From contig JAQICC010000093.1 in the NCBI GenBank assembly GCA_027858735.1, forward strand, positions 1 through 43,101: a stretch of 43,101 bases of DNA, written 5' to 3'. Positions 3,794 to 38,493 of this stretch are shown one piece after another. Both the position numbers and the translations under genes were made by a program. The notes beneath the pieces were generated by a model. It saw only the letters and a program-made list of their open reading frames with translations, was not told the origin of the DNA and searched no databases. The DNA comes from Salinivirgaceae bacterium (lineage in GTDB: Bacteria; Bacteroidota; Bacteroidia; Bacteroidales; SZUA-534). Position 1 is the first letter of the stretch; every line of letters starts with the position of its first letter.

Positions 3794-3840
3794 CCTAGGG
3801 CTTTGCCCTAGGCTATTGAATTTCGCCCCTTCAGGGCTTG
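3794..3840 (+). repeat. REP-like hairpin repeat family D, copy 1
   Basis: CCTAGGGC-TTT-GCCCTAGG perfect stem then GCCC-CTTCA-GGGC; resembles 8463-8508 and 14245-14292. Confidence 0.7.
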
Positions 3841-9889: not shown

Positions 9890-10103
9890 GGCTTTGATTA
9901 AAAGTTAATAACACTGCAAATTTGGACAACCTGATTTTGTTGTGAAATAAAAAAGGAGTGAATGGAACATTTTTTAGGATGAACAGGTGCAAAGATTGCA
10001 ATCAACAGTCCTCAGTTCCCAACCTAACATCTTCATTATTTGCAAATATTAGAACAGCATTTTTTGAGCAAAATCGAATTCAATATTAATACTAAAAATA
10101 AAC

Positions 10104-10275
10104 GGTTCTACTACCAATTTTGTGGGTAAGGTTAAAATTATATAAGTTTTTTAGTTTTCAAATATGAAGTTCTCAGTCCTCAGTAAACTTATTGACGTAC
10201 TGAGAACTGCCTACTACATCTCACTTAAAAAATACACTTTATAAAATTATTTTCCACTAAATTCGTAGTAATATC
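10104..10275 (+). mobile_element. MITE-like element family A, copy 1 (172 bp)
   Basis: TIR GGTTCTACTACCAATTTTGTGG ... CCACTAAATTCGTAGTAATATC; flanked by perfect 8-bp direct repeats AAATAAAC (10096-10103 and 10276-10283); internal hairpin AGTTCTCAGT/ACTGAGAACT. Confidence 0.85.
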
Positions 10276-10370
10276 AAATAAACAAAGGTGTAAAAAGTAA
10301 ATCCAGATAACTGAAGACTGAAAAGTGAAGACTTAAAAATAGTATCTTCGTTTTACTAAAATTTACAATT

Positions 10371-30197: not shown

Positions 30198-32003
30198 TTA
30201 CTCATCAATAATCCCCATTTGTTTCATTAAAAATGAAGCGTTCATATTCTGAGTAACACCGGGCTGAAGTTTATAATCGAATTTCAGCTCGTTGCTTTTT
30301 ATTTCTACCTCAAAACATAAGGCTTTAAAAATATCGGGTTGCAGCTCTGCCAATCGAGCCAATTCTAAATCGTGTGTTGCCACTAGTCCATGAGCCATTT
30401 TTTCAGTAATTTTTTTGACAAAGCCAATCGATCCTTTTCTCTTATCCTCCGAATTTGTTCCTCGCAAAATTTCATCTAGAATAATAAAAAGCTTTTTGCC
30501 TTTATCGAGCTCTTGTGTAATTTTTTGCAGGCGTTTTAACTCAGCAAAAAAGTACGATTCATTATTCATTAACGAATCTTCTGCACGCATGCTTGAATGC
30601 AATGGCAGTGGTGTAAAAGTTAGCTTTTCAGCACAAACAGAAGCGCCGCATCCGGCAAGTACAATATTGGTAGCTATTGTACGCAAAAAGGTGCTTTTGC
30701 CAGCCATATTGGCTCCGGTAACAATGGCATATCTTGGCGATTGATCAATCGAAAAATCATTACAAATTCGAACATTCTTAGCTAAAAGCGGATGGCCAAT
30801 CTGAACAGCTGAAAGCTCAAATTCCTTTTCTGAAATTGCCGGAAAAGAAAAATCGGGATTATTAAAACTTAAATTCGCCAAACTTATAAGAGCGTCAAAA
30901 TTGGCAATACATTCCAGCCAGTTACTAAAATCAACCTTGTGATTCAATCTCCATTTTTCAATTCTAAAAATATATTGCCAATCCCAGAGCAACAAGCTAT
31001 TTAAAATTATTCCAAGCAGCATGTTATTTCTATTATCAAGACCATTCAATAGTTTGGTTAGCTTATTAATTTGAGAACTGGCATGAACTTCATTCTTTTC
31101 AAGCATGCTTTTCAAATAAAGAGCATGCTCCGTTTCACAATCAAGCTGTTCTATCATTTGAACCAAGCGCGATGTTTTTCTTAAAACAGCATGGCTTCTA
31201 TTTAATAAGCCATAGTAGCCATTAAATTTTTTGAGTCGCGAACCAATTATAGTAAGATTAATAAAAATCACCCAAATCAAACTTGTAATTTCAAACCTAC
31301 CTGCAATTACTAATGCTAATACAGAAATATTTACAAGCGGTAGCAACCAAAGAAAAATCAACATAAAAAGCCTTTTTGTAAAAAACAAGGGGTAATTTAT
31401 CCACGAGCTTACCAATTCCTCTTCTTCAGTTTCGCTGGCAAATAACTTACCCACTACCTGAAATTCTTGTCTAAAATTTAGTTTGGTTGATAGTTCCTCA
31501 ACAACTTTTTGGTTATTAACAATATCTGCATTTATTAATGGAGTATTACGCAGCCATTTGGCTAAAAGGTTTTTCCCTTTAATGGTAACCGATCTATTTA
31601 AATATTGAAATAATGAACCATCGCCAAATAAATCAATATCGTATGAATAAGGATGATTATGATCGACAAACTCAGCTCCTGACTGAAATACACTATAATC
31701 TCCATTACAACATTTAATTTCATTTGCATTGGTTTTAATCATGGCCTCCAGATAATTTCTTTTATCCTCAAGATTTTTATGCACCTTTAAAAACACCATA
31801 AAAGCCACAATAAGTAGCATTCCCATTATAGCACCAGCACCTGCATGTACCGAAGGAAAAACATAAAACCACGAGAGTAGAATAGCTATAAAAATGGCCA
31901 ATCGTAACAAGGAAACTTTTGCATGAAGACTTTTTGTTTTCTTTAATCTCTTGCTATACTCATCGAGAAGCGTTTCGTATGTTGGTATTTGAAAGGTATT
32001 CAT
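30198..32003 (-). CDS. MutS-family ATPase-like protein with predicted transmembrane segments
   Basis: C-terminal MutS ATPase motifs YAIVTGANMAGKSTFLRTIATNIVLA, LFIILDEILRGTNSEDKRKG, GLVATHDLELARLA; hydrophobic stretches near residues 30-70 and 205-255. Confidence 0.88.
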   Translation of the reverse strand: MNTFQIPTYETLLDEYSKRLKKTKSLHAKVSLLRLAIFIAILLSWFYVFPSVHAGAGAIMGMLLIVAFMVFLKVHKNLEDKRNYLEAMIKTNANEIKCCNGDYSVFQSGAEFVDHNHPYSYDIDLFGDGSLFQYLNRSVTIKGKNLLAKWLRNTPLINADIVNNQKVVEELSTKLNFRQEFQVVGKLFASETEEEELVSSWINYPLFFTKRLFMLIFLWLLPLVNISVLALVIAGRFEITSLIWVIFINLTIIGSRLKKFNGYYGLLNRSHAVLRKTSRLVQMIEQLDCETEHALYLKSMLEKNEVHASSQINKLTKLLNGLDNRNNMLLGIILNSLLLWDWQYIFRIEKWRLNHKVDFSNWLECIANFDALISLANLSFNNPDFSFPAISEKEFELSAVQIGHPLLAKNVRICNDFSIDQSPRYAIVTGANMAGKSTFLRTIATNIVLAGCGASVCAEKLTFTPLPLHSSMRAEDSLMNNESYFFAELKRLQKITQELDKGKKLFIILDEILRGTNSEDKRKGSIGFVKKITEKMAHGLVATHDLELARLAELQPDIFKALCFEVEIKSNELKFDYKLQPGVTQNMNASFLMKQMGIIDE

Positions 32004-32025
32004 AATTTGAAATATTTACTTTTAT

Positions 32026-32214
32026 GCTATTACTACGAATTTAGCGGAAAATAATTTTACAAAGAGTATTTTTAAAGTGAGATATAGTAAGCAGTTCTCA
32101 GTACGCAATCAACAAGTTTACTAATAACTGTGAACTGAAAACTAAGAACTTCATACTTGAAAAATAAAAAACTCATATAATTTTAACCTTACCCACAAAA
32201 TTGGTAGTAGAACC
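32026..32214 (-). mobile_element. MITE-like element family A, copy 2 (189 bp)
   Basis: Reverse orientation to copy 1; minus strand begins GGTTCTACTACCAATTTTGTGGG; flanked by perfect 8-bp direct repeats ACTTTTAT (32018-32025 and 32215-32222). Confidence 0.85.
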
Positions 32215-32373
32215 ACTTTTATTAAGGTATTTTTCCATTCTGCGAATCTAACGCTTTTAATTCGAATTAAACATTAGCAATCCACGGAAAATAATTAAAA
32301 AATAGATGCATACTCAGTTGATAGATTAATAATATTTTCTGTATTTTTATATATTAAAAAACAAAAACCCAAC

Positions 32374-38255: not shown

Positions 38256-38285
38256 TATTTGTATTTCAAGTACCTTTAAAAACAA

Positions 38286-38472
38286 GGTTCTACTACCATT
38301 TTTGTGGCTAATGATTAAATTAGGTGTATTTTTAAGTTCTCAGGTTGGCATCCTCCAGTCCTCGGTTCTCAGTCCTCAGTATGTCCAACAACTGGAGACT
38401 GAGGACTGCCTAATATAACTCATTAAAAAAACTCCTTATAAAATTATCTTACACTAAATTCGCAGTAATACC
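38286..38472 (+). mobile_element. MITE-like element family A, copy 3 (187 bp, diverged interior)
   Basis: GGTTCTACTACCATTTTTGTGG ... ACACTAAATTCGCAGTAATACC; flanks AAAAACAA (38278-38285) and AAAAATAA (38473-38480), 7/8; internal hairpin CAGTCCTCAGT/ACTGAGGACTG. Confidence 0.8.
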
Positions 38473-38493
38473 AAAAATAAAAACATATTAAGC

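Follow-up and report, generated by a model that had tools for sequence, protein, structure and literature searches.

The window, by which we mean the whole 43,101-nucleotide stretch of Salinivirgaceae DNA analysed here, contains three insertions of a short non-coding repeat bounded by terminal inverted repeats (TIRs) and, at each site, by an 8-bp target-site duplication (TSD). The repeat is a MITE, and its copies and parts lie at the following positions.

10096-10103 (+): left TSD of copy 1, 8 bp, AAATAAAC, identified from the sequence
10104-10275 (+): copy 1, MITE subfamily A1, 172 bp, with end 1 on the left
10104-10125 (+): TIR end 1 of copy 1, GGTTCTACTACCAATTTTGTGG, resembling the 3' (transposase C-terminus) type of ISL3 end
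10174-10209 (+): central inverted heptad array of copy 1, CAGTCCTCAGT ... ACTGAGAACTG
10254-10275 (-): TIR end 2 of copy 1, GATATTACTACGAATTTAGTGG
10276-10283 (+): right TSD of copy 1, 8 bp, AAATAAAC, identified from the sequence
32026-32214 (-): copy 2, subfamily A1, 189 bp; TSD ACTTTTAT (8/8) at 32018-32025 and 32215-32222
38286-38472 (+): copy 3, subfamily A2, 187 bp; TSD AAAAACAA/AAAAATAA (7/8) at 38278-38285 and 38473-38480

An earlier note on this DNA had described copy 1 as a 172-bp element with imperfect TIRs of about 22 bp and a perfect 8-bp TSD, and its coordinates proved exact. The two flanking copies of AAATAAAC agree at 8/8 positions. The inverted ends, which can also be written as the pair GGTTCTACTACCAATTTTGTGG and GGTATTACTACGAATTTAGTGG, are imperfect over 22 bp, and 15/17 positions of the core TIR are complementary, as had been claimed. 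No ORF of at least 80 aa overlaps 10104-10275, so copy 1 lacks the transposase between its ends that an autonomous IS would have.

The two further insertions that had been placed at 32026-32214 and 38286-38472 are likewise real, with TSDs matching at 8/8 and 7/8 positions, respectively; the perfect TSD of copy 2 had gone unreported. Copy 2 is 84% identical to copy 1 and oppositely oriented. It occupies an intergenic gap between divergent genes, and the start codon of a MutS-family ORF (30198-32003, minus strand) is about 22 bp away. When an orthologous empty site was sought there, gene order beside copy 2 proved not to be conserved in the nine relatives with a MutS-family match. Copy 3, which lies between convergent genes, is 71% identical to copy 1 and represents a second sequence subfamily. 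Elsewhere in the window, positions 3794-3838 match the Rfam Acido-Lenti-1 RNA (RF01687) at 51.1 bits, where the gathering score is 37.

Copies and boundaries in the host genome

We searched the 5.99-Mb host genome, a draft of 452 contigs, with the 172-bp unit as query, a search that the earlier note had proposed, and obtained 42 matching stretches at E < 0.001. A pattern search for the TIR, allowing up to three mismatches, returned 108 sites, compared with 6 for a control in which the pattern was reversed. Thirty-seven elements are bounded by both TIRs, most of them 138-207 bp long. In 18 of these 37 the flanks form a TSD matching at 7/8 positions or better, compared with 0.83% when flanks are swapped between elements; the signal lies at a width of 8, and the eight bases adjoining end 1 are 87.5% A+T. 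Because about half of the copies have no recognisable TSD, many of them are old. The earlier note had named differing boundaries in other copies as a ground for doubt, and the same boundaries turned out to be common to the other copies, which supports it.

These data uphold the earlier proposal: the family is MITE-like, lacks coding sequence, is bounded by TIRs and 8-bp TSDs, and would need a transposase in trans. The elements are short (<600 bp) and non-coding, carry TIRs, and occur as dispersed copies with TSDs at constant boundaries. No match to the MITE was found in viral contigs, phages, or plasmids.

By eye, at least three internal sequence subfamilies can be told apart in the host genome: A1, which includes copies 1 and 2, A2, which includes copy 3, and A3 (GTGTTTTTATAAGATGTACATATTTAG...). 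An additional repeat family, about 337 bp long, has an interior of its own between related TIRs. Its members comprise L031 (G000:C1:110-446) and the ends of contigs C100, C142, C162, C224, C272, C280, C369, C381, C405, and C440; it is frequently found at contig ends and is in places joined to other repeats.

The central heptad array

Degenerate heptads arranged as an inverted array occupy the centre of the MITE; those of one arm read CAGTNNN and those of the opposite arm NNNACTG. Of the 37 host copies, 30 contain one or more heptad pairs, compared with 0.3% of 140-bp flank windows. Eight pairs occur in the window, where 0.7 would be expected by chance; six lie inside the three MITEs, and two flank copy 1. 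An inverted heptad pair, CAGTCCTCAGTT at 10006-10017 and AACTGAAGACTG at 10309-10320 with 11/12 positions complementary, lies on either side of copy 1 beyond the TSDs. The arrangement looks as though copy 1 had landed in a heptad hairpin older than itself or in a decayed relative.

Other lineages carry, at the corresponding place in the element, the period-7 words ATGACGG (L103), AGAAGTT (L098), GGAAGTC (L109), and CAGTACA (L078), or the period-8 word AATGCTTA (L115/L124), in arrays whose significance in single elements is often weak. The position of the array is kept across different subfamilies and genera, and the repeat words differ. Such recurrent, lineage-specific arrays pose a small puzzle. 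They may be the result of slippage in a hairpin. It is doubtful, in our estimate, that the array has a function in the element or is generated there by a mechanism, in which case it would be renewed again and again by a slippage- or hairpin-driven process tied to MITE transposition or replication.

ISL3-type ends and the candidate parent

The two ends of the MITE are not equivalent. End 1 (CC-A-W-TTTNGTGGGTA) is the counterpart of the ISL3 end where the C-terminus of the transposase is encoded; end 2 (CG-A-A-TTTAGTGGAA) is the counterpart of the promoter-side end. This asymmetry is kept in the MITEs, with GTGGGTA on the side of the transposase C-terminus versus GTGGAA on the other. Homology between MITE and IS stops about 25 bp in at either end.

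A correspondence at both ends was observed in G001, a genome from the same GTDB family as the host, in which several contigs end inside an ISL3 element. The right end of this element, GGTTCTACTACCATTTTAGTGG, matches end 1 of G001's own MITEs at 22/22 positions; the left end, which precedes MNFTEDFFNLVLDFGDEWVV..., matches their end 2 at 20/22. The transposase stop codon falls within the TIR, and one of the left-end contigs (L250) has its 8-bp flank, ATAATATT, in common with one of the right-end contigs (L139). TIRs shared with a full-length autonomous IS are thus seen in G001, and the host itself yielded only related 5' ends. Because IS and MITE coexist in G001, this genome offers a testable donor/recipient pair.

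Relatives from the same order provided the transposase. On contig G026:C35, the strand opposite the TIR GGTTCTACTACCATTTTTGTGGGTAAAGATCAAG encodes a transposase ending in ...LDLYPQKW, with the stop codon TAG inside the TIR; this C-terminus matches PF01610 (DDE_Tnp_ISL3, E = 3.5e-14) and the NCBIfam ISL3 model (E = 5e-13). A 4.3-kb TIR-to-TIR span on the same contig, considered as a composite transposon, is actually two inverted ISL3 3' fragments surrounding two ORFs, one broken and symporter-type and the other sialate-esterase-like (identified by eye), and we used it solely for the ISL3 C-terminus. A full-length ISL3 element of 1277 bp in G593 (G593:C145, L203:1485-2761) has ends of this type and a TSD, TTTTTTAT, that matches at 8/8 positions. 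Its 404-aa transposase matches the ISL3 DDE domain (PF01610, 1.6e-69) and the HTH and Zn-ribbon models (PF13542, 3.7e-6, and PF14690, 3.8e-5), the latter two slightly below their gathering scores; the three domains were thus recognised on the protein of a same-order relative, not on a copy of the host's own. Other ISL3 copies elsewhere in the phylum measure 1277 and 1282 bp and have GGTTCTAC ends and 8/8 TSDs. The MITEs resemble the G593 element in the type of termini and in the 8-bp TSD, and their target duplications are A+T-rich, as expected of an ISL3-derived element; they differ from it in being non-coding, whereas the IS carries a transposase gene in its roughly 1277 bp. A TIR-bounded span of 354 bp in another genome (L172, G306:C82) retains the 3' portion of a gene for an ISL3 transposase and has a TSD of only 4/8; it is a possible intermediate between IS and MITE.

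The search for a full IS with matching ends, also suggested in the earlier note, succeeded in relatives, where ISL3 elements were found, but not in the host, whose 452-contig draft holds no intact ISL3 element with MITE-type ends. The draft yielded ISL3-type 5' ends only, and no 3' end of such an element was found in it. Contigs C369 and C384 break off 97 bp inside the TIR and carry the first 26 codons of an ISL3-like protein (MIRIVDFFNLILDFGDEWVV...), breaks of the kind expected of a repeat collapsed in assembly. This 5' end (GGTTCTACTACCATCTGTGTGG) matches the two MITE ends at only 19/22 and 15/22 positions. Its translated 26-aa N-terminus has no HMM match by itself and is placed as ISL3-like solely by resemblance to G001, G593, and G713. 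In C61 (L253, at a contig end), the same 105 bp run in frame, after about 26-28 codons, into a SpoIIAA-like ORF, which is either an assembly chimera or a real fusion and makes it less certain that the elements in C369 and C384 are intact. Since the host provides only 5' ends with these partial matches and no 3' end, continued mobilisation of the MITE in this host is only a possibility. Two PF01610 genes are all that the host has (C188 and C84); both are ISAon1-like with GGCAAAAATTTATTTTGAGG ends and so are not the parent.

The shared termini argue strongly for assigning the MITE ends to the ISL3 family. The element is very probably a non-autonomous MITE that keeps the two ends of an ISL3-family IS around a short non-coding centre and would be moved by an ISL3 transposase in trans. 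A DDE transposase provided in trans brings the two ends together and, after cutting, inserts the element at a staggered target, which fill-in then duplicates. For this family, an ISL3-type DDE enzyme made in trans would bind the ends of about 22 bp and move the MITE into A+T-rich intergenic DNA, where a staggered cut followed by repair and fill-in would leave the 8-bp direct repeat. What can be read in the DNA are the products, namely TSDs and constant boundaries, the number of copies and their intergenic placement, together with the ends shared with ISL3 elements of relatives; from these we infer the enzymatic step, and likewise that an ISL3 transposase moves the copies and does so in this host.

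Alternative origins and relation to known MITEs

The repeat could instead act chiefly as a functional RNA of intergenic DNA or as a regulatory hairpin (like a terminator, REP or BIME) that was selected rather than transposed. Copy 1 folds better as RNA than its shuffles (z -4.05), and 30 of 37 copies have central inverted arrays. Among the 28 copies that had sufficient flanking sequence, no overlap with an ORF of at least 100 aa starting at ATG was seen, which leaves 28/28 tested copies outside long ORFs. However, an intergenic bias is also predicted by purifying selection against gene insertions, and copies 2 and 3, folded as DNA, are only modestly better than shuffles (z -1.2 and -2.3, respectively). 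The Rfam search gave no match at the MITE copies. Perfect 8-bp TSDs at constant boundaries and ends identical to those of an IS also speak against a selected hairpin, which we consider very improbable.

Descent from an IS1595-family element, the parent suggested in the earlier note, is more improbable still. IS1595 also produces 8-bp duplications, and IS1595 genes (PF12762) are indeed present in the host genome. Their loci, however, show no TIR match, the ends found at two of them (ACTGGGGTATGCAC and AGGTTAACCA/TCCTCAGTCGCAC) are unrelated, and the ends that do match the MITE sit on ISL3 elements in relatives. Mobilisation by an IS1-family transposase can be dismissed almost entirely: GGTTCTACTACCAA weakly resembles the IS1 end, and IS1 makes 8-9-bp duplications, but no PF03400 (IS1 transposase) match was obtained in the host genome and a better parent is found in relatives.

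With an ISL3-family IS as the probable parent, the nearest known counterpart is a 187-nt ISL3-type MITE already described in Microcystis aeruginosa PCC 7806 (PMC11448079). It is non-coding, of similar length, mostly intergenic, and present in about 30 copies, forms a stem-loop, and has 8-nt direct repeats and ends matching ISL3-family elements. It differs from the host MITE in its TIR (9 nt, GGCTCTTCG, versus about 22 nt, GGTTCTACTAC...), its phylum, and its near-identical copies; a heptad array is not mentioned in the passages compared here (PMC11448079). BrickBuilt of Porphyromonas gingivalis, a MITE with a minisatellite (PMC4596501), is also a multicopy, intergenic Bacteroidales MITE with an internal tandem-repeat block. 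It is, however, kin to the IS5-family ISPg1/ISPg9, with 12-bp TIRs, a 4-bp TSD, and a 23-nt repeat unit (PMC4596501), and its sequence is unrelated to that of the host MITE. We found no ISL3-type MITE described from Bacteroidota in the open-access literature. The family is new; ISL3-driven MITEs as such were already known from Microcystis.

With a probable parent for this abundant family of intergenic repeats, which turns up in several lineages of Bacteroidota, its members can be annotated as derivatives of ISL3. TIR matches were found in Bacteroidales, Salinivirgaceae, Saprospiraceae, Lewinellaceae, and Flammeovirgaceae MAGs and in one Chlorobiota MAG. The matches in the MAG labelled Chlorobiota (L101 and L105) are exact and reflect either horizontal spread or a binning error.
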